Source: a bacterium (GTDB lineage Bacteria > CSSED10-310 > JAJRTK01). From it: a stretch of 9,626 nucleotides of DNA. The stretch spans positions 1 through 9,626 of the forward strand of contig JAJRTK010000405.1 in NCBI GenBank assembly GCA_024278345.1, read 5' to 3'. Below, piece after piece: positions 70 to 9,483 of this stretch. Under the pieces are notes generated by a model, which ran no database searches, was not told where the DNA came from, and saw only the letters and a list, made by a program, of their open reading frames with translations. The number at the start of each line of letters is the position of its first letter. Positions within the stretch are counted from its first letter, which is position 1. The position numbers were made by a program, and so were the translations under genes.

Positions 70-591
70 TTGCCCGGACGCTTGCGATTCCACAGTCCCG
101 GGAATGTCCCGCCTTGCGTGGATACCCCTCTCTTGAAACGGGGAAAGCTGCCAGGCAAGAAAGTGGGCCGTCAGTGGGTGCTTTCGAAGGAGAAGCTGCC
201 GGTATCGGACGGGCAAAAGCAGGCTTGGATCGCGAAGCGGCAAGAGGTGGCCGGTGTTGTGGATAAGACGCTGGGGCGGCTTCGCACGGGGCCGACGGAG
301 AGTTATTCGGTGACGGACCTTCGGGCGTTTGCCGCGGGGGTCGAACTCCACGGACGGGTGCGAATTCGGTTGGCGGAGAGTGTGGGGCTTTGGGATCGGC
401 GTGGATTGTATCACTGCCTGGAGCAGATGGATTCCTTGGGCCGCCAGCTCGGGGGGGGGGGCATGGCGAGTGGCGGCGGACGGATTGCCGGCGCCGCGAG
501 CGGAACACAACAAAACTCTCACCTATCCGTCTGCCGGGAAACGCGTTCCAGGAGGGCCTCAACTTTTTGCTCGATGATGGGCCATAGGTAG
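70..591 (+). CDS. Truncated excisionase/MerR-type HTH protein, probably a gene remnant
   Basis: The reading frame is open from base 1 of the window; the first usable start is a TTG at 70. Around bases 130-205 the translation LLKRGKLPGKKVGRQWVLSK matches the second half of the helix-turn-helix domain found in excisionases and small MerR-like regulators (recognition helix, then the basic K/R-V-G-R-x-W wing). The first helix and the usual E-A-A start are not visible; the upstream residues are Pro/Gly-rich and do not look like protein. Residues to about base 450 have ordinary codon use and then reach an 11-G run, after which the three frames end at 577, 587 or 591 inside the antisense 3' end of the glycosyltransferase. 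I read it as a 5'-damaged gene, possibly also frameshifted at the G run. DNA binding is inferred only from the half-domain; the C-terminal part is not recognised. Confidence 0.4.
   Translation: MPGRLRFHSPGNVPPCVDTPLLKRGKLPGKKVGRQWVLSKEKLPVSDGQKQAWIAKRQEVAGVVDKTLGRLRTGPTESYSVTDLRAFAAGVELHGRVRIRLAESVGLWDRRGLYHCLEQMDSLGRQLGGGGMASGGGRIAGAASGTQQNSHLSVCRETRSRRASTFCSMMGHR
451..461. repeat. Homopolymer run of 11 G
   Basis: Eleven consecutive G residues lie inside the HTH-remnant reading frame. Each length modulo 3 gives a different C-terminus, with stops ending at 577, 587 or 591. Such runs are prone to replication slippage and also to assembly or sequencing error; the sequence alone cannot separate these. 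Confidence 0.9.
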
Positions 592-1694
592 TTGGCCTGG
601 AAATAGGCTTGTCCGGCTTCTCCCATCTTGTTTCGGAGCTTCGGCTGGTGGAGCATGAGATCGAGGGCTTCCTCGAATTCGCTGTAACCCTTGTAGAAAA
701 GTCCGCCGTTGGAGCGGATGCACTGCCCCTGGAGGACCTTGCACTGGGCGTTGGCCAGAACGGGCCGGCCCAGGGCCCAGGCTTCGAGGACGATGACGGA
801 GAGCGACTCGTACGGAGAGGGCATGATGAGCAGCTCCGCCTGGCGGAGGGCCGAAAACTTCTCTTCTTCCGTGACGAAACCCAGGTGCTGGATGCCCGGG
901 TGGCGGGGAATGTTGATGACGCTTTTTCCTAAGAGAATCAACGGGGGAGCACTGGGCCGCTTGGCCGCGTACCGCTGGTAGTAGTCGAAAAGGCGCTTGC
1001 AGCCCTTGTTCTTGTCTACTCGGCCGACGTAGAGAAGATAGCGAGCCAGACCCCGCTTGGCCTTGAAATCGAAGAGCTTCTCCTGGGGGACGAGCTGGAC
1101 GCCGCTGCCGATGATTTCGTGCTGGCACGTCTTGCCGGTGGCCTGCTCCACGAGATCTCGTTCTTCGGGGGTCAGAAAGAGCATTCCTTGGGGAAGCCGA
1201 AGCAATTCCCGGGACGCGGCGAGGTCGATGGCGTGGTCCTCTTCCGCGGTGGGGACCAGGACGGCGCGTTGGGCCACTTGCGGGAGCCCAAAGAAGGTCT
1301 GGTAGTATCGGTAGGCGTAGAAAACGAAGAGATCGAACTCCTTGGCATGGGTGTGGAGGGCCCGGATGAGCTTCGGGGATTCGGGGCCGTTGAGGCGGAA
1401 CCATTCTTCTTCATCGGCGGGGCTGTGATCGTCGAAGAAAACCAGGTTGGAGATGTCGTGGAACTTGCGAAAGCTCCGTTGCCGGCGAACGCGGTACCGG
1501 TGGACGGGGATCCCGGCCACGTTGGTGGTGCCACGTCGGTAATGGTTGGCCCAGGTCAGGTAGTCCAAGGCGCAGGTGGTGAAGATTTCGACGTGGTGGT
1601 TCCTGGCAAGCCGTTGGGCCAGCCAGCGGCAGTGGAGCTCGCCGCCTCCGTTGACTTCGAGGCCGTATCGTTGGATGACAAAGGCAATGCGCAT
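519..1694 (-). CDS. Family 4 glycosyltransferase (GT-B fold), copy 1
   Basis: Protein of 391 aa, the usual length for a retaining GT4 enzyme, which moves a sugar from a nucleotide-sugar donor to a cytoplasmic acceptor. The N-terminal Rossmann half starts MRIAFVIQRYG with a glycine loop and His (GGGELH, residues 16-21). The C-terminal donor half starts near 222 with Y-V-G-R and K230-G231, the usual phosphate-binding residues, and carries the EX7E signature in PYESLSVIVLE (E296 and E304). No signal peptide or membrane span is seen. It is the last gene of the minus-strand operon, 121 bp behind the flavoprotein gene, with no good Shine-Dalgarno before its ATG. It is closely similar along its whole length to the glycosyltransferase at 7594-8784. 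Donor sugar and acceptor cannot be read from sequence. Its last codons overlap, antisense, the HTH remnant. Confidence 0.93.
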   Translation of the reverse strand: MRIAFVIQRYGLEVNGGGELHCRWLAQRLARNHHVEIFTTCALDYLTWANHYRRGTTNVAGIPVHRYRVRRQRSFRKFHDISNLVFFDDHSPADEEEWFRLNGPESPKLIRALHTHAKEFDLFVFYAYRYYQTFFGLPQVAQRAVLVPTAEEDHAIDLAASRELLRLPQGMLFLTPEERDLVEQATGKTCQHEIIGSGVQLVPQEKLFDFKAKRGLARYLLYVGRVDKNKGCKRLFDYYQRYAAKRPSAPPLILLGKSVINIPRHPGIQHLGFVTEEEKFSALRQAELLIMPSPYESLSVIVLEAWALGRPVLANAQCKVLQGQCIRSNGGLFYKGYSEFEEALDLMLHQPKLRNKMGEAGQAYFQANYLWPIIEQKVEALLERVSRQTDR

Positions 1695-1815
1695 GACGGG
1701 GTTCGCGGAAGGTGGCGGAGGTGCCGCTGCCGGTGGAAAGAGAGGTTTCGGGGGTGGCCGGAAAGTGGTGGGATTCCGTGTTGTTTGGTGGCGGTGGTTA
1801 CCGAGGTCCGAAGGG

Positions 1816-3378
1816 TTAGGCTGTCTTGGCGGGCTTGAATCCCGAACGCTTCAAGAGCTGCGCAATCTCGGCCCTGGTTGCGCCGAGTTTTTGCGCGGCG
1901 GCCTGGAGGTCCTCCGCCAGGACGGGATACCAGTTTTTCCGCCCGCGGTCACATAGCCCGGCCACGTCGAAGGGAGCGATGGCGGATTCCACGGCGGATC
2001 GCAGTTTTTCGGGCGCGGTTTCCGGGTCCATGGCAAGTTCGCAGGCTGCCTGGAAGCCCGGTCTGAATTCTCCATGGGCAGCCAAGAGGAAGGAGCTGGC
2101 GGCTTCGGGGCGGCCCAGGCGGCGCATGGTTTCGGACCAGCTTGCGGCGGCGAAGTAGAGAAGGGTCAAATCGTTGAAGGCCGGTGGCCTGTCCATGGTG
2201 GCGTAGAGGGCGGCCAAGATCCGGACGGCGGCCTGGATTTCTTCCCCAGTGCGTTCTTGGTACTCGTCCAGGAAGACGTTCCAATCCGAGTCTAGAATCC
2301 CGGCGCGGAGGGCTCTGGCAAGACGCTGAATCCCGAAGAGGGCCAGGGGGAAGCCCAGGGATAGAAGAGGATCCACGAAGGCTGCCGCGGATGGCAGGAG
2401 AAGGAATCCGGGCCCCGTCACGGAGCTGGCGCGGAAGGGGACCACTGGGGAGTGGCGCCAGGGCTCGCAGGGAATTGCCCCCTGGAACTGGCGGCGGATG
2501 GAGGGATATTCTTGGAGCGCCGCCTGCCAGAGTTGTTCGGGATTCCGGGTGGTTCCAGCAGGGAGGCGGCTGGGATCGCCCACGATGCCGGCGCTGGTGA
2601 TCCCGTTGTCGAAGTGGAGCACCCAGATCCAGCCGCCGGAAAAAACGTGATGGACCGCTGCGTCGTCTACGGGATAGGGGGGTTCATGGGCATTTTGGAA
2701 CTCTTCGAGCCATGCCAGGCGTCGGACGTCGCGAAAGTGTGTGTAGGCCGTCACCGTTGTGGGGAAGGGGGAGAAGGGGGTTTCCCGGATTCCCAGGTGC
2801 TCCGTGGCGAAGCCTCTTTGCCCGCTGGCGTCGATGAGCCAGTCGGCCTGGATCTCGCATGGGCCGGTGGGTGTTTCCAGGGTCAGCCGGACGTTTCCAG
2901 GGGCCACGTGGGCCTCGGAAATGGTGGCGTGGTCGATGTATCGGACTCCGGCGGATACGGCTTCCGAGAGCAGAAGTAGGTCAAAGTCGGGGCGGTACCA
3001 GTGGGTATCGGCAACCTCGTCGTGGGGGCTGGCCGCCACCAAAAGCTCGTTTTTCCGGTCCGGCGTCTTGGAGAACGGTTTTCCCGGGCGGTGGTGGTAA
3101 AAGGTGAAGCCGCGTTTGAGGCCACAGCCCACGGTGGGGTGGAAGCGCTGCCAATGCCCCCAACTCTTGAGCTGATCCAGGATCGGCAAGTCAAATTCCC
3201 CGGCCAGCTCTTCCAAGAGCAGGTTGGCCAGGGGTGACGAGGATTCTCCGATGACGAAGCGAGGATGCCTGTCCTTTTCAACGAGTGTCACGTGGTAGCC
3301 CAGCCCGGCGGCGAGGGTGGCGGTAATGGAGCCGGCAAAACCGGCGCCCACAACGACGAGGTGCTTTTGATGGGTCAT
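1816..3378 (-). CDS. FAD-dependent oxidoreductase of the flavin-halogenase-like superfamily
   Basis: Protein of 520 aa. An N-terminal Rossmann motif GAGFAGS (11-17) binds FAD, followed by E34 for the ribose. IGESSSP (43-49) is the GESxxP-type motif of tryptophan- and phenol-halogenase-like flavoproteins. K88 in CGLKRGFTF lies where halogenases carry the catalytic Lys. DASGQRG (183-189) is a second FAD-contact motif. WIWVLHF (250-256) sits where halogenases have WxWxIP: both Trp are kept but I-P is L-H. AAAFVDPLLSLGF (331-343) matches the late FAD motif but lacks the preceding Gly-Asp. The region after 350 is helical and not recognised. It could be a divergent halogenase, a hydroxylase or another oxidase; assignment to the superfamily is firm, the reaction is not. 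GGAG lies 7 nt before the ATG. A 56-bp gap separates it from the radical SAM gene, so co-transcription is likely. Confidence 0.88.
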   Translation of the reverse strand: MTHQKHLVVVGAGFAGSITATLAAGLGYHVTLVEKDRHPRFVIGESSSPLANLLLEELAGEFDLPILDQLKSWGHWQRFHPTVGCGLKRGFTFYHHRPGKPFSKTPDRKNELLVAASPHDEVADTHWYRPDFDLLLLSEAVSAGVRYIDHATISEAHVAPGNVRLTLETPTGPCEIQADWLIDASGQRGFATEHLGIRETPFSPFPTTVTAYTHFRDVRRLAWLEEFQNAHEPPYPVDDAAVHHVFSGGWIWVLHFDNGITSAGIVGDPSRLPAGTTRNPEQLWQAALQEYPSIRRQFQGAIPCEPWRHSPVVPFRASSVTGPGFLLLPSAAAFVDPLLSLGFPLALFGIQRLARALRAGILDSDWNVFLDEYQERTGEEIQAAVRILAALYATMDRPPAFNDLTLLYFAAASWSETMRRLGRPEAASSFLLAAHGEFRPGFQAACELAMDPETAPEKLRSAVESAIAPFDVAGLCDRGRKNWYPVLAEDLQAAAQKLGATRAEIAQLLKRSGFKPAKTA

Positions 3379-3434
3379 GGGGTTTCTCCGCGATTAACGT
3401 GCGCGTGGGTGTTTGCGGGAGCACAATGGCGTGT

Positions 3435-4454
3435 TCAAGGGGAGTCTTCGCAACTGGGGCAGGTCGCGGGGCGCGTGGGCCTTTGGGTTCGGTTCATCGT
3501 CTCCATGTTTTGCCGGCGTTCCTTGAAGCAGTCAGGGCAGACAGAAAACTGCTCCAAGTCCCAGAGATCGGCCAGGACTCGGCCACGGCCAAGCTCCAGG
3601 GCGCCTTCCATGGCGGCTTCCAGGGTAGGGAGCGCCGGTGGCTTGAAGAGGCCTTGGCGGGCGAGTTCGTCCAGGGCCCCGTTCCCCGGGCGCGTGGGGA
3701 TCAGAACAGCGGTCTCCGCTCCGGCCTCGAAGGCGAAGTCAGCGGATCGAACGGCCTGGGGTACGCTTTCGACCGGGGGAGTGAACGGTGGTTGTACAAG
3801 GATGAAGGCTCGCACGGCGACCCCCGCTTCGTCAAGGCGGCGGCAGGTCTTTCGAAAGCAATTCAGGTCCATGCCCTTGTTCAGGCGCCGGAGGATCCCG
3901 GGGTCGGCGCTCTCCAGGCCCATGGCCAGCTCCAGTTTTCCGTCGATAAGCTCCCGAAATTCCAGCGCCCCACGACCCACCAGGGCGGGATGGCACTCCA
4001 CAATGACCCTCTGGAACCGACTGACCAGCTTGGCGATCTCCGGAAGATCCGCCGGGGGGATCGCCCGTGGATCGAAGAAGCTCCCGGCGTTGTAGAGCTT
4101 GATCCAGTTGGTTTTCCGGAGCCGCGCCAGGGCGTGGCGGATCTGCTCCGGGATCGCCCCCGGCTCCACCGGCTCGGGGAGAGTATTCTTCCAGAGGTCG
4201 CACGTGAGGCAGCGCCAGGGGCACTCCCCGTTCGTCAGGAAGATCGTGGCGACGCTTGTGCTGTTGCCCGAGCCGTCGGGCTCGGACTCCGCGAAGAAGG
4301 CGTATGGCACGCGGGAATCGAGGTCACCTGTGCGGCGTCCACGTCGTGCCAGAATCCACCGATCCCGGCCCTGTCGTCCCGATGGATAGCGGTGGATCTC
4401 CTGGTTCGGCCCTTCCCGGATCTCAGGTTCGGTGGCCTGCCCGATCAGCTCCAT
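3435..4454 (-). CDS. Radical SAM enzyme, C-x3-C-x2-C type with C-terminal paired CxxC
   Basis: Protein of 339 aa. The cluster motif C78-P-W-R-C82-L-T-C85 would bind the [4Fe-4S] that splits S-adenosylmethionine to a 5'-deoxyadenosyl radical. After it come barrel segments, including YNAGSFFDPR (121-130), VIVECHPALVG (150-160) and the GLES segment (179-182, SAM contact). C306-x2-C309 and C332-x2-C335 close the protein and could bind zinc or an auxiliary Fe-S cluster. The core resembles the Elp3/MiaB/NifB-like radical SAM group; I cannot assign a named subfamily or substrate. The ATG lies inside the end of the upstream asparagine synthetase-like gene (shared ATGGAGCTGA), so translation is probably coupled; there is no Shine-Dalgarno of its own. 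This coupling suggests the two proteins are needed in matched amounts. Confidence 0.9.
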   Translation of the reverse strand: MELIGQATEPEIREGPNQEIHRYPSGRQGRDRWILARRGRRTGDLDSRVPYAFFAESEPDGSGNSTSVATIFLTNGECPWRCLTCDLWKNTLPEPVEPGAIPEQIRHALARLRKTNWIKLYNAGSFFDPRAIPPADLPEIAKLVSRFQRVIVECHPALVGRGALEFRELIDGKLELAMGLESADPGILRRLNKGMDLNCFRKTCRRLDEAGVAVRAFILVQPPFTPPVESVPQAVRSADFAFEAGAETAVLIPTRPGNGALDELARQGLFKPPALPTLEAAMEGALELGRGRVLADLWDLEQFSVCPDCFKERRQNMETMNRTQRPTRPATCPSCEDSP

Positions 4455-5761
4455 AGCGCATAGAATTTTTGGCGGTAGTCCGCGGTCTCGGGAAAGATCC
4501 GCCGGAGCCGCTGGGCCTGGACGGCTCCATGCTGGAAGCGCCGCTTGGGGTAGATGGGCATTTCCAGGCCCGTGAGGGCCCGGATGCCATGAAGGACGAT
4601 TTCGCCTTTCAAGCGGTAGAGATCTCCATGGTCGTAGTTTGTGAGGCCCACGAAGGGAATCGCCTCAGCCACCTCGATGAGAGCCGGTCGCGTGAAAGGG
4701 CTGAACCCCTGGAAACCCAGCATCCGAAGCGGCGCGTAAACCCGCGTGCAGGAGCGGCTCAGGCCCCCGGAATAGGTAAGAGAGTGCTTGATCTTCCCCA
4801 CGCCCCATCCTTCCTGATAGAGCATGGAGTTTCCCAGAACGCTCTGGATGGTGAGCTCCGGGTTTTCCTCGATGGGATAGTCCTTGAGGTTCTCGTCGCC
4901 GCCGTCGCCGTCCAAAAGGAACCGCCAGTCCGGGTACCGGGCACGGATCCCCTTGCAGAGCGCCAGCACCATGGAGGCGCACTCCAGGTCTAGCGGCTTA
5001 TAGTCTTCCACTACCCGAAGCACTTCCAAAACGTCAAGCTCGTCGAGAGACCCTTCCACCGGCTCCAGGAACAGCTCCAGGTCCAGGGCTTGGAGGAAGC
5101 GGCGTGCCTGGACCAGGTCCGCCCCTTCTCCCAGGTCCAGGGTGAATGCCTTGAGACGGCCCAGGTTCATCCCCGACTTTTTCATGACGTAGTACGTCAC
5201 AAGGAAAACGGCGCCGCTGTCGATACCGCCGGAAAAGCAAACGCCGATGGGTGCCCCTTTGGGAAGGGCGGCGAGCCACCTGGAGATCTCCCGGGCAAGG
5301 GCCCCGATATATTCCTTCCCGGCCATGGCGGGATCCGCCGGAAGGACCCCCTGCGGTGGCGCGAAGAAACGCACATAGGTGGGCTCGGGATCCGGGCAGC
5401 CCACAAGGTGCAGCTCCACTACGTGATGGGCCGGCACCATCCGGGTGTAGCTGGGGTGGAATTGCTTCCCAAGGCCTTGGGAAACGAGCCAATCCCGGAT
5501 GGCGTCCATCCGGTGGGCAACGACGAGGACCGGGCCAGCCTGGCGCTTGGCCAGAAAATAGCGCATGGGGCGATCCAGGGATCGGGCCATGCGCACGATT
5601 TCGCCCCGTTTTGCCACGATGGCGAAGGAACCGTCGATTTCTCTCACGTCTCGGGAAGAACCCTCCAGCACGCGTCGCCGCGCTTCCTCCAGGGTCATGC
5701 CGTGCAGGCGATTCAGTTCGGGGTCAAGAAGATCGACCACGCGCTCCACGTTACGGTCCAT
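4445..5761 (-). CDS. Asparagine synthetase-like ATP-dependent amide synthase without glutaminase Cys
   Basis: Protein of 438 aa. The C-terminal synthetase domain has the PP-loop SGGIDS (177-182), which binds ATP pyrophosphate, an acidic DGDGGDE (284-290) matching the GDGxDE segment of the family, and K385 in RLKGEIV near the expected catalytic Lys. It should adenylate a carboxylate and form an amide. The N-terminal part keeps a late piece of the glutaminase fold (IDGSFAIVAKRGE, 42-54), but the first 60 or so residues of a normal domain, with the N-terminal Cys nucleophile, are absent. In-frame TGA and TAG at 5771-5776 rule out a longer start. It therefore probably uses free ammonia or an amine (intermolecular, or internal as in beta-lactam synthetase or lasso cyclases). 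GAGGA lies 6 nt before the ATG. It is the first gene of the operon. Amidation of a surface sugar acid is an alternative role. Confidence 0.9.
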   Translation of the reverse strand: MDRNVERVVDLLDPELNRLHGMTLEEARRRVLEGSSRDVREIDGSFAIVAKRGEIVRMARSLDRPMRYFLAKRQAGPVLVVAHRMDAIRDWLVSQGLGKQFHPSYTRMVPAHHVVELHLVGCPDPEPTYVRFFAPPQGVLPADPAMAGKEYIGALAREISRWLAALPKGAPIGVCFSGGIDSGAVFLVTYYVMKKSGMNLGRLKAFTLDLGEGADLVQARRFLQALDLELFLEPVEGSLDELDVLEVLRVVEDYKPLDLECASMVLALCKGIRARYPDWRFLLDGDGGDENLKDYPIEENPELTIQSVLGNSMLYQEGWGVGKIKHSLTYSGGLSRSCTRVYAPLRMLGFQGFSPFTRPALIEVAEAIPFVGLTNYDHGDLYRLKGEIVLHGIRALTGLEMPIYPKRRFQHGAVQAQRLRRIFPETADYRQKFYALWS

Positions 5762-5845
5762 GTGGCTTCCTCACTACCGGGTCAAAGTCACTTCATTCTG
5801 GCATTCAAGTCCACGAGCGCCCATTATGGGGCCCCGAAGTCCTTC

Positions 5846-5875
5846 ATCATAAGCGGAAATGGTGCCACTGGCCAA
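5846..5875 (-). promoter_or_regulatory. Candidate sigma-70 promoter of the operon
   Basis: On the minus strand TTGGCC (5875-5870) and TATGAT (5851-5846) are separated by 18 nt. The -10 matches 5 of 6 consensus bases and the -35 matches 4 of 6. Transcription would begin near 5839, giving a leader of about 78 nt before the ATG at 5761. The MITE-like element's flanking repeat begins only 3 bp upstream of the -35, so the element may have replaced upstream control sites. Inferred from motif match only. Confidence 0.3.
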
Positions 5876-5877
5876 CC

Positions 5878-5885
5878 CTGGCAGC
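5878..5885. repeat. Left target-site duplication CTGGCAGC
   Basis: CTGGCAGC abuts the left inverted repeat of the MITE-like element and is repeated exactly at 6040-6047. The identity runs to 10 bp (CC added on the 5' side) because the right inverted repeat ends in CCC, so the true duplication length is 8 to 10 bp. Confidence 0.85.
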
Positions 5886-6039
5886 GGGACCTATCAAATT
5901 GTCGTGTTTTTGCTTTACAATTTTCTTCGCCGAAACGGTGGTACCGGCATCTTGCCGGTGTAGCGCCCTCCGGGCTGCACGGAGCCGGGAAGGAGGCCCG
6001 CCCCAGCGGTGATGTTGTCAACCGGATCTGATAGGTCCC
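5886..6039. mobile_element. 154-bp MITE-like element, copy 1, complete
   Basis: The ends GGGACCTATCA (5886-5896) and TGATAGGTCCC (6029-6039) are perfect 11-bp inverted repeats. Directly outside both lies CTGGCAGC (5878-5885 and 6040-6047), an 8-bp direct repeat as left by transposition. Inside are AAATTGT/ACAATTT and ACCGGCA-TCT-TGCCGGT hairpins. There is no open frame able to code for a transposase, so it must move in trans. Bases 5888-6028 recur at 9486-9626 with one visible substitution (T at 5943, C at 9541 in the GGTGGYACC segment). An 8-bp duplication is compatible with IS families such as IS1595 or IS256, but the parent is not identified. Short frames over it are not genes. Confidence 0.88.
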
Positions 6040-6047
6040 CTGGCAGC
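6040..6047. repeat. Right target-site duplication CTGGCAGC
   Basis: This exact copy of 5878-5885 directly abuts the right inverted repeat (ending at 6039). Together they define the insertion boundaries and imply a relatively recent event, because no base has diverged. Confidence 0.85.
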
Positions 6048-6295
6048 CCACCTTTCCGGAGCCTTTGCATTCGGATGCCAATGAGAGCGCAAGTCGATCC
6101 CACTCTCATGCAAGCGCTAGTCAGCAGCCTGACGGGCTTCCGATTTGCCAATGGGGGATTCCGTGTTACCCTTTTTGTCTTTCTTGGATTCTTCGGGAGA
6201 GCGTGGATAGAGAGTGGCGCCTCCTGGTTGAGTCTCCATGGGTTTCTACCCATTGTGCGATCATTTTCCGTTCCTTCCATCCAGCGAGCTAGACT

Positions 6296-7597
6296 ATGAG
6301 TCGATCCAAGGTTGCGATCCTGAAGACCAGCCCCCAGAGGGTGCTTTCTGATTACCACGAGCTGATGAACTTGGCCGGCTACCAGGAGACGTTGGACAAA
6401 GGGGCGGATACGGCGTTGAAGATCAACATTTCCTGGCACTTCTTCTATCCCGCCTCATCGACGACCCCCTGGCAGCTCGAAGGGGTGATCCGGGCCATGA
6501 AGCGGGATGGTTATTCGTCGGACCTGATCCACGGATGCCACAACCGGACCGTGGTCATCGATTCTCACCTGGGCGAGCGCGAAAACAAGCATATCGATGT
6601 CATCCAGGCCCACGGGCTTCGGAACGTCCACCTTTACGAGGGTGAGGAATGGCTCGACATCCGCGAGGCCGTGGGCGACCTTTGCGACAAGTTCCTTTGC
6701 CTGGGCGAGGTCTATCCCAACGGTTTTTCCATTCCCAAGCGCTTCATCGGCGAAAACATTCTCCACTTGCCCACGGTGAAGACCCATGTCTTCACCACGA
6801 CGACGGGTGCCATGAAAAACGCCTTCGGCGGGCTCTTGAATGAGCACCGCCACTGGACCCATCCCGTCATCCACGAGACCCTGGTGGATCTCTTGATGAT
6901 CCAGAAGAAGATCCATCCCGGCATCTTCGCCGTCATGGACGGAACCTTTGCCGGAGACGGCCCGGGGCCCCGCTGCATGATTCCTCATGTGAAGAACGTC
7001 ATCCTAGCCTCGGCGGACCAGGTGGCCATCGACGCCGTGGCGGCGAAGCTCATGGGCTTTGACCCGCTGAAGGATATCAAGTTTATCCGCCTGGCCCACG
7101 ATCTGGGGCTTGGCTGCGGAGATGTCCGAGAGATCGAAATCGTGGGCGACAAGAGTGCCCTGGAAGAAAACTGGAACTTCGTGGGACCCTTCAAGAAGAT
7201 GACCTTCGCTTCCAAGATGCAACACAAGATTTACTGGGGCGCACTGAAGAAACCCATCGAGTGGTCCTTGAAGACGTGGCTCGCCCCTTGGGCCTATATC
7301 GCGAGTGTCCTCTACCACGATGCCTACTGGTATCCTCGCCACCAGAAGCGGATCCACGAAATCCTTTCCAGCGAGTGGGGGAAGCTCTTCCACAACTGGC
7401 GGAACGTGGCCCTGGACCCCAACGACCTGGACCTTCCCGGTTGGGAGTCCGTGGGCCAGGAACCCGCGGTCTTCCGCAAGGAGACCATGCAGCTCCTGAA
7501 GAAGTCCATGAAGATCCTGGGCACTTGCATCAAGGAAGCGCCCGAGGTGGCCGCCCGCCGCCGCGCCAGGGAACGCCGGAAGCGCCTTGCGGGCTAG
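6296..7597 (+). CDS. DUF362 domain protein without ferredoxin domain
   Basis: Protein of 433 aa. The DUF362 fold is recognised from LPTVKTHVFTTTTGAMKNAFG (about 158-178; the K-T-H and G-A-x-K-N-x-F-G features), VMDGTFAGDGPGPR (213-226; D-G then G-x-G-P) and ASADQVAIDAVAAKLMGFDP (238-257). Members are often linked to Fe-S or redox proteins, but the domain's chemistry is not settled. This one has no CxxCxxC ferredoxin module. It has a C-terminal extension of about 120 residues rich in Trp/Tyr (KIYWGALKKP, YHDAYWYPRH) and a strongly basic tail RRRARERRKR (421-430). There is no signal peptide. An in-frame TAG at 6290-6292 fixes the ATG; no clear Shine-Dalgarno precedes it. It is divergent from the operon, and its stop overlaps the stop of the second glycosyltransferase. 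A role in the same pathway is inferred from position only. Confidence 0.92.
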   Translation: MSRSKVAILKTSPQRVLSDYHELMNLAGYQETLDKGADTALKINISWHFFYPASSTTPWQLEGVIRAMKRDGYSSDLIHGCHNRTVVIDSHLGERENKHIDVIQAHGLRNVHLYEGEEWLDIREAVGDLCDKFLCLGEVYPNGFSIPKRFIGENILHLPTVKTHVFTTTTGAMKNAFGGLLNEHRHWTHPVIHETLVDLLMIQKKIHPGIFAVMDGTFAGDGPGPRCMIPHVKNVILASADQVAIDAVAAKLMGFDPLKDIKFIRLAHDLGLGCGDVREIEIVGDKSALEENWNFVGPFKKMTFASKMQHKIYWGALKKPIEWSLKTWLAPWAYIASVLYHDAYWYPRHQKRIHEILSSEWGKLFHNWRNVALDPNDLDLPGWESVGQEPAVFRKETMQLLKKSMKILGTCIKEAPEVAARRRARERRKRLAG

Positions 7598-8784
7598 AGG
7601 CCGAGGCTCCGGTCATGGGCGGCCGGTGCCCCCAGGAGCCATTCGTATTTCTGTTCGATGACGGACCAGTCGTAGTGCGCTCGGAAGTAGGCCCGTCCCT
7701 GCATTCCCATGCGCCGCGCTTCCGCCCGGTGCCCGCGGAGCCATTGGAGAGCCTCGGAAAACTCCGCGTAGTCGCGGTAGAGAAGGCCTCCGTTGGAGCG
7801 GTAGCACTGGCCCCGGAGGACTTCGCAGTCACCGTTGACCAGGGCCGGCGTCCCCCTGGACCAGGCTTCCAGAAGGACCATGGAGAGGCTTTCGTACCGG
7901 CTGGGCATGATGAGCATCTCCGCCGTCGCCATGAGGCCAAGCTTCTGATCGTCGGGCACGACGCCCAGGTAGGTGACCGAAGGATGATCCGGGACGCCAT
8001 CGACTCTTTTGCCCGCCAAGACGAGCTGGAGGCGGTCGCCTGTTTCGTGAATGTGGCGAAGGAAGTGGCTCAGGAGGTCGAGGCATCCCTTCTCTCTTTC
8101 GATTCGCCCCACGTAGAGAGCGAAGGGCTCCGGCAAATCCAGCATTTTCCGGAGCTCGGCGCCCTTGGGGTGCGGAATCTCCCGTATCCCCACGCCCACC
8201 ACGGTTCCCCGGACGTGGCCGTTCTGGGTGATCCGCTGGATGAGCTCCCGCTCTTCAATGGAGTTGTAGGCGATGGCCACGGGTTTCTGGAACAGGTCGG
8301 CGAAGATCTGGAAGTAAAGGACCCGGTCGTGCTCGGCCGTGGGGACCAGGATGCTCTTTTCAGGGGCGACGGCAAGGCCGTAGTAGGTGGTCCAGTAACG
8401 GTAGCAGAAAAAGATCAGGCGGTGGAAACGACGGTGCTCCTGCCGAAGATAACTCAAGAGCCCGCCACTGACGGGGCCGTGCTCGTCGAGCCATTGCTTT
8501 TCGTCGGCCATCCCGTGGTCGAAGTAACAGCACTGGTTGGAAATCTCGTCGAAATCCTCCTGGACCCGTTCCCGGTCCACGGTGAACCTTCGGACGGGCA
8601 GACCGCCCACGGAGCAGAGCCCCGGCGGATACTCATTGCCAAAAGTCCGATAATCGATGGCCGTGGTGGTGAGCACTTCCACCTCGTGTCGCCGCGCCAG
8701 CCGTTCCGCCACAAACCGGGCGTGGATTTCGGCGCCCCCGACAATTTCGTCACCATATCGCTGAACGACAAGTCCGATTTTCAT
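7594..8784 (-). CDS. Family 4 glycosyltransferase (GT-B fold), copy 2
   Basis: Protein of 396 aa. The N-terminal half starts MKIGLVVQRYG with GGAEIH (16-21). The donor half has YVGRIEREKG (224-233, K232) and the EX7E signature in RYESLSMVLLE (E298 and E306). It is a full-length paralogue of the glycosyltransferase at 519-1694: shared blocks are the QRYG start, F-DH-ADE near 88-94, CYRYWTT/AYRYYQT (127-133), LVPTAE (146-151), IMPSxYESLS, and LxGQCxRSNGGLxY followed by EFxEAL. The most similar blocks lie in both the acceptor and donor halves, so the two may use related acceptors and donors, perhaps in successive steps. No clear Shine-Dalgarno precedes the ATG. The stop is shared as CTAG with the convergent DUF362 gene. 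Donor and acceptor are unknown. Its upstream 840 bp is repeat-rich and non-coding, so it probably has its own promoter. Confidence 0.93.
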   Translation of the reverse strand: MKIGLVVQRYGDEIVGGAEIHARFVAERLARRHEVEVLTTTAIDYRTFGNEYPPGLCSVGGLPVRRFTVDRERVQEDFDEISNQCCYFDHGMADEKQWLDEHGPVSGGLLSYLRQEHRRFHRLIFFCYRYWTTYYGLAVAPEKSILVPTAEHDRVLYFQIFADLFQKPVAIAYNSIEERELIQRITQNGHVRGTVVGVGIREIPHPKGAELRKMLDLPEPFALYVGRIEREKGCLDLLSHFLRHIHETGDRLQLVLAGKRVDGVPDHPSVTYLGVVPDDQKLGLMATAEMLIMPSRYESLSMVLLEAWSRGTPALVNGDCEVLRGQCYRSNGGLLYRDYAEFSEALQWLRGHRAEARRMGMQGRAYFRAHYDWSVIEQKYEWLLGAPAAHDRSLGL

Positions 8785-9359: not shown

Positions 9360-9401
9360 ATAGGGGTAGGGAAAGCGCATTGGTTTGCGCCTCCCCTCCC
9401 T
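9360..9401 (-). ncRNA. Group II intron domain VI and 3' splice end
   Basis: On the minus strand, domain V is followed by a G-rich arm, the GCGC/GCGC stem around AAACCAAU, and a returning arm CCCUACCCCUAU. The A opposite 9367 lies 7 nt before the end of CUAU, the usual place of the branch-point adenosine, so the 3' splice site would fall after 9360. The 12-bp palindrome ATCCACGTGGAT (9350-9361) spans the junction. Confidence 0.65.
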
Positions 9402-9403
9402 CC

Positions 9404-9436
9404 GAACCGTACGTGCGGTTCTCCCGAATACGGCTC
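9404..9436 (-). ncRNA. Group II intron domain V
   Basis: On the minus strand, GAGCCGUA and UACGGUUC form the perfect 8-bp lower stem, containing the catalytic AGC triad, followed by the conserved CG bulge, then an upper stem UUCGG/CCGCA capped by GAGAA. This is the most conserved part of bacterial group II introns. The length is 33 nt and one upper-stem pair is broken (U opposite C). Domains I to IV and the reverse transcriptase gene are not in the window; if present, they lie beyond 9626 on the minus strand, past the MITE-like insertion. Confidence 0.8.
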
Positions 9437-9483
9437 TCCAGGCGGAGGGTCTCTCATCGAGACTGGCAGGCCGCGGCATGGGC

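Follow-up and report, generated by a model that had tools for sequence, protein, structure and literature searches.

AsnL-rSAM, a conserved amide ligase and radical SAM gene pair linked to CRTAC1-like genes: a possible undescribed bacterial pathway

In beta-lactam and carbapenam synthetases the asparagine synthetase fold uses ATP to form amides and does not hydrolyse glutamine; beta-lactam synthetase closes an amide within an N-carboxyethyl amino acid. Lasso-peptide cyclases of the McjC type are asparagine synthetase relatives without a glutaminase which also make amides, and in other bacteria proteins of the Asn_synthase family amidate surface sugars. Radical S-adenosylmethionine (SAM) enzymes, for their part, can act on the product of an amine-transferring enzyme: in archaeosine formation, ArcS adds a lysine to preQ0, after which RaSEA, complexed with ArcS, turns the adduct into archaeosine (PMC11298593). 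The subject of this work is a bacterial gene pair encoding an amide ligase (AsnL) and a radical SAM enzyme (rSAM), accompanied in some lineages by a flavoprotein gene (FAD). The pair was found in contig JAJRTK010000405.1, which is analysed here at its full length of 9626 bases (the window) and belongs to a 6.06-Mb genome in 550 contigs, so that the gene surroundings end abruptly on both sides.

A reading of the window made from the sequence alone (the sequence-only reading) had described four closely spaced minus-strand genes, flanked by a divergent DUF362 gene and a paralogous glycosyltransferase, as a possible undescribed pathway. The six open reading frames (ORFs), their strands, spacings and families have all been borne out by their coordinates and by Pfam and NCBIfam searches, and no characterised pathway with the AsnL-rSAM set was found in the open-access papers searched. 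Thus, the gene set is real and matches no described pathway found, but its boundaries were drawn wrongly: the true unit is smaller than six genes, and consists of AsnL and rSAM, plus FAD in some lineages. This unit is a conserved, apparently undescribed and putatively biosynthetic module linked to CRTAC1-like genes. In the window, AsnL (4445-5761, minus strand) is its first gene and overlaps rSAM (3435-4454, minus strand) by 10 bp, while FAD (1816-3378, minus strand), the facultative third gene, follows after a gap of 56 bp.

To assess the conservation of the module, the AsnL alignment was run against 84,980 species genomes. This gave at least 244 relatives, the best 80 of which were taken for locus comparison. 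By record title, these best 80 belong to Verrucomicrobia, Acidobacteria, Planctomycetes/Phycisphaerae, Bacteroidetes, Marinimicrobia, Myxococcales and Deltaproteobacteria, and cultured carriers include Granulicella (sp. L46), Gemmata, Maribacter (M. arenosus) and Lutibacter (L. citreus). Altogether 86 AsnL loci were compared, window included, some of them shortened by contig ends and one (L112) duplicating the genome behind another (L035). rSAM adjoins AsnL in 61 of them (60 besides the window), on the same strand and often with an overlap of 4-8 bases; FAD adjoins AsnL/rSAM in 35. Furthermore, an rSAM search of a sample of 386 genomes gave six strong matches (8e-235 in the window's own genome, 9.5e-84 to 2.7e-31 in the others), the next match dropping to 3e-14, and a second search, with an AsnL profile, picked out the identical six genomes and none among the other 380. 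The chance of such a coincidence is about 2e-13, in a hand calculation that ignores phylogeny. In the five genomes other than that of the window, AsnL and rSAM are always adjacent and FAD comes after them in three. The adjacency is therefore more than chance, given its recurrence in 60 other loci and the co-occurrence in 6/6 against 0/380 genomes.

Among 25 genomes without rSAM at the AsnL locus, 22 carry it elsewhere (E<=1e-63), in six of these with FAD after it. rSAM is an obligate-looking partner of AsnL. FAD behaves differently, as a strong relative occurs elsewhere in only 7 of 25 genomes lacking it beside AsnL, and none was found in the Bacteroidetes tested in this group. Between loci, the pairwise distances measured from AsnL, rSAM and FAD agree with one another (matrix correlations r 0.66-0.80, reached in 0 of 2000 permutations), which would fit co-inherited genes, although a common species history would by itself produce such values. 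No AsnL relative was found in plasmids, and a scan of viral contigs gave no rSAM relative. For rSAM, the plasmid scan gave only distant relatives (30% identity; L029 and L030, 7719-8834), in the two Streptomyces plasmids pFRL3 and pFRL5. There they sit in what looks like a natural-product cluster, with genes for a P450, serine hydroxymethyltransferase, GT9, carbamoyltransferase and a heptose-phosphate adenylyltransferase.

AsnL (Pfam Asn_synthase, 2.4e-10) has kept the ATP-pyrophosphatase site and lost the glutaminase. The PP-loop SGGxDS is exact in 53 of 62 members, with S177, G179, D181 and S182 invariant, and the GDGGDEN motif is present in 59, while the glutaminase nucleophile Cys2 occurs in none of the 62. 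The AlphaFold2 model (predicted local distance difference test score, pLDDT, 88) resembles human ASNS (Z 24.7), beta-lactam synthetase 1mc1 (Z 24.6; root-mean-square deviation 3.9 over 375 residues) and carbapenam synthetase (Z 21.9), but aligns only from residue ~36-40 of ASNS and beta-lactam synthetase onward. Since Cys2 is absent and the first ~36-40 residues of the glutaminase domain are gone, the glutaminase of AsnL is non-functional, and the likely nucleophile is consequently free ammonia or an amine other than glutamine-derived ammonia.

In the case of rSAM, the Pfam Radical_SAM match (3.5e-5, 24.5 bits) lies under the cut-off of 29.5, and the best curated family is RaSEA (TIGR01210, 4.9e-23), with 81.8 bits against an equivalog cut-off of 212.15 bits that is not reached. 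The motif CxxxCxxCDLW is present in 50 of 50 aligned members. The AlphaFold2 model (pLDDT 93) is a radical SAM barrel, with queuine lyase 6p78 as its nearest fold (Z 17.1), HydE and biotin synthase being equally close and Elp3 also near; comparison with PDB sequences gave no match. With NCBIfam, motif and fold all pointing the same way, rSAM is a radical SAM enzyme with an intact [4Fe-4S]/SAM motif in spite of the sub-cut-off Pfam score, and it is distantly related to RaSEA, the radical enzyme of archaeosine synthesis.

FAD (Pfam Trp_halogenase, 6e-14) has as nearest solved relatives PltM (PDB profile match 4e-74) and tetracycline 7-halogenase. The catalytic lysine of halogenases (Lys88, in the GxKxGF motif, here GxKRGF) is found in 28 of 28 FAD proteins aligned with PltM. 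As regards the halogenase motif WxWxIP, WxW is kept in 25 of 28 and IP in none, the usual form being GWxWxL[RHQK]F. More weakly than to PltM, FAD is also similar to GoxB, to LodB and to the peptidyl hydroxylase QhpG (NF049967, 4e-27), the last with 95.2 bits against a cut-off of 240 bits that is not reached. With the lysine invariant and WxWxIP absent, both a halogenase and a hydroxylase role are possible.

The strongest partner of AsnL-rSAM is not visible from the window. The commonest extra neighbour of AsnL comes from a family that combines FG-GAP repeats with a UnbV_ASPIC domain at the C-terminus. Among solved structures, human cartilage acidic protein 1 (CRTAC1) is the closest to this family, whose members are probably secreted, judging from signal-peptide-like N-termini and from the family itself. 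UnbV genes are present in all 30 AsnL genomes tested, with 4-36 copies each, and in the sample of 386 genomes UnbV_ASPIC occurs in 6/6 AsnL genomes against 104/380 others. A UnbV gene lies inside 14 of the 30 AsnL loci, against 1.49 expected from copy numbers (P 1.5e-11, a value which assumes evenly spread copies and refers to hand-picked, non-random loci), and in 29 of the 86 loci overall. In some loci it is found 7-60 bp upstream on the same strand, and in the window's genome the UnbV genes lie on other contigs.

Moreover, some loci of Bacteroidetes, Marinimicrobia and Opitutaceae add hydrazine-synthase-alpha-like and beta/gamma-like diheme propellers, together with a RidA-like or chorismatase-like protein and Peripla_BP_6 proteins. 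A conserved operon holding UnbV_ASPIC, a hydrazine-synthase-alpha-like protein, a hydrazine-synthase-beta/gamma-like diheme propeller, Reg_prop, a RidA-like protein and two Peripla_BP_6 proteins is found in the window's own genome (L191, contig C160, 478-9879), where it ends with a DAHP synthase gene, and also in L089, L093, L116, L192 and L193. DAHP synthase genes occur in L100 and L084 as well, and a kynureninase gene in L109. Four genes near AsnL-rSAM (L103 7968-9197, L116 3341-4516, L050 12793-13965 and L099 12800-13927) encode divergent FkbO/Hyg5-like chorismatases, all under the curated cut-off; that of L103 lies 21 bp after rSAM. At E<1e-20, chorismatase-like genes were found in 8/44 AsnL genomes against 2/380 genomes without AsnL. 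Taken together, the DAHP synthase, chorismatase-like and kynureninase genes give a weak hint, suggesting a chorismate- or tryptophan-derived aromatic acid. As specific partners of AsnL, the chorismatase-like and RidA genes are weakened as candidates by their presence next to UnbV genes in AsnL-negative genomes.

Tentatively, and with a probability of roughly 0.4, the module is read as a cytoplasmic pathway to an amide-derived, perhaps chorismate-derived molecule for an extracytoplasmic CRTAC1-like system. As to substrate and product, we infer that AsnL would adenylate a carboxylate and join it to an amine donor; the acid could be chorismate-derived, since chorismatase-like and DAHP synthase genes accompany some loci. 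rSAM would then act on the adduct through a 5'-deoxyadenosyl radical, most plausibly by a C-N cleavage or a rearrangement, by analogy with ArcS-RaSEA, and FAD, where present, might hydroxylate or halogenate a phenolic ring. The product would serve a CRTAC1-like, partly hydrazine-synthase-like, redox system outside the cytoplasm. The most specific form of this scheme, in which ligation of the amine donor and radical C-N cleavage, working outside nucleic-acid metabolism, make a diffusible chorismate-derived cofactor for secreted CRTAC1-like propellers and their hydrazine-synthase-like diheme partners, is a long shot. The module would give the abundant, unexplained CRTAC1/UnbV proteins of bacteria a first biochemical partner. 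The retention of the pair across several phyla points to a biosynthetic step without match in the papers searched, and makes a RaSEA-like radical reaction on the product of an amide ligase directly testable.

Several observations weigh against this scheme. FAD is missing from most of the tested genomes that lack it beside AsnL, so ring oxidation is not core to the module, and the proposed C-N cleavage rests on a RaSEA match well under the cut-off and on a fold match that HydE and biotin synthase share equally. As these phyla often carry UnbV copies, phylogeny confounds the genome-level association with AsnL. The hydrazine-synthase-like/UnbV operon, with a chorismatase-like gene, is also found in the AsnL-less genomes L192 and L193 and hence does not need the module, and most AsnL loci have no chorismatase-like gene, while such genes also adjoin UnbV genes where AsnL is absent. 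A rather unlikely alternative is a maturation resembling that of ribosomally synthesized and post-translationally modified peptides (RiPPs), in which the FG-GAP/UnbV proteins encoded nearby would have side chains altered by AsnL, rSAM and FAD before export, for instance to form a protein-derived cofactor, on the model of QhpD/QhpG acting on quinohemoprotein amine dehydrogenase. It is kept because the module shares operons with genes for likely secreted proteins: UnbV genes lie directly upstream within one operon. In addition, MauG/quinohemoprotein-like domains occur in the neighbouring diheme propellers, and FAD has a weaker similarity to the peptidyl-cofactor maturases QhpG, GoxB and LodB. 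However, FAD is closer to PltM and far under the QhpG cut-off, and when 35 UnbV-family proteins from AsnL loci were aligned with 20 from AsnL-less genomes, no column told the two groups apart, the invariant residues being mostly FG-GAP Asp/Gly positions. Further, no conserved small precursor ORF was found in the region searched, the 1.5 kb upstream of AsnL in the 86 loci.

A part in modifying RNA or DNA, after the manner of archaeosine or queuosine and with AsnL taking the place of ArcS, would agree with RaSEA as the nearest NCBIfam family of rSAM and with a fold near queuine lyase and Elp3, but is very unlikely: rSAM falls well short of the RaSEA cut-off, the sole Pfam match of AsnL is Asn_synthase and not a TGT/ArcS family, and no tRNA- or 7-deazaguanine-related family was seen among the neighbours examined, no search having been aimed at ArcS/TGT. 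Amidation of a sugar or uronic acid of an envelope polysaccharide, with AsnL acting like WbpS-type amidotransferases, is highly improbable; Asn_synthase proteins do amidate surface sugars elsewhere and GT4 genes lie nearby in the window, but AsnL is without the glutaminase that those amidotransferases use, and glycosyltransferase genes are not conserved neighbours of AsnL. The sequence-only reading had suggested that all six genes together could make a small molecule bearing sugars, or else a surface glycan, which is now extremely improbable. In its favour, GT4a (519-1694, minus strand; Pfam Glycos_transf_1, 2.2e-15) lies 121 bp after FAD on the same strand, and GT4b (7594-8784, minus strand; Pfam Glyco_trans_1_4, 1e-14), a paralogue with 41% identity, closes the set on the other side, beyond the divergent DUF362 gene (6296-7597, plus strand; Pfam DUF362, 2.8e-21). 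Against it, no relative of GT4a or GT4b at E<=1e-8 was found in the other 85 AsnL loci (1/86, the window only), DUF362 adjoins AsnL in 2/86 loci (the window and one other), and a search of 21 other AsnL genomes with the DUF362 protein yielded nothing at 1e-15. These three genes were rejected as partners of the module and are best read as passengers; thus, of the neighbourhood proposed for comparison across phyla, the rSAM/AsnL adjacency and often the flavoprotein are maintained, the GT4 and DUF362 genes are not, and nothing here points to a surface glycan or a product carrying sugars.

The window also holds two copies of a dispersed repeat of ~155 bp, one between AsnL and DUF362 (5884-6041) and another at the contig end (9482-9626). 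Roughly 40 other copies, mostly 97-99% identical, are listed genome-wide, and on folding the repeat gives a long hairpin (-68 kcal/mol). A match to group II intron domain V (RF00029, 49.6 bits) lies at 9360-9438 on the minus strand; no such domain was found adjoining seven other copies of the repeat.

Compared with the known systems, AsnL shares the PP-loop of class B asparagine synthetases but is without Cys2. It has the fold of beta-lactam and carbapenam synthetases, from which it differs in an N-terminal domain that is shorter still, in an identity of 11-17% and in its radical SAM partner. In contrast to the lasso-peptide cyclases, no conserved precursor ORF was found upstream of AsnL, and neither a protease nor a RiPP recognition element partner was seen. 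FAD keeps the GxKxGF lysine of the phloroglucinol halogenase PltM and of tetracycline 7-halogenase, whereas WxWxIP is replaced and the gene is facultative. The maturation systems of QhpD/QhpG, LodB and GoxB likewise place a radical SAM enzyme and a flavoprotein near secreted propeller or diheme proteins; here, no small client subunit is seen, FAD stays under the curated cut-offs and there is an additional amide ligase. Finally, ArcS-RaSEA similarly pairs an amine-transferring enzyme with a RaSEA-type radical SAM enzyme. AsnL has the asparagine synthetase fold and is not an ArcS, rSAM scores under the RaSEA cut-off, and the module is bacterial, with propeller proteins and not tRNA genes as neighbours; ArcS-RaSEA is the best-understood precedent for the AsnL-rSAM pair.

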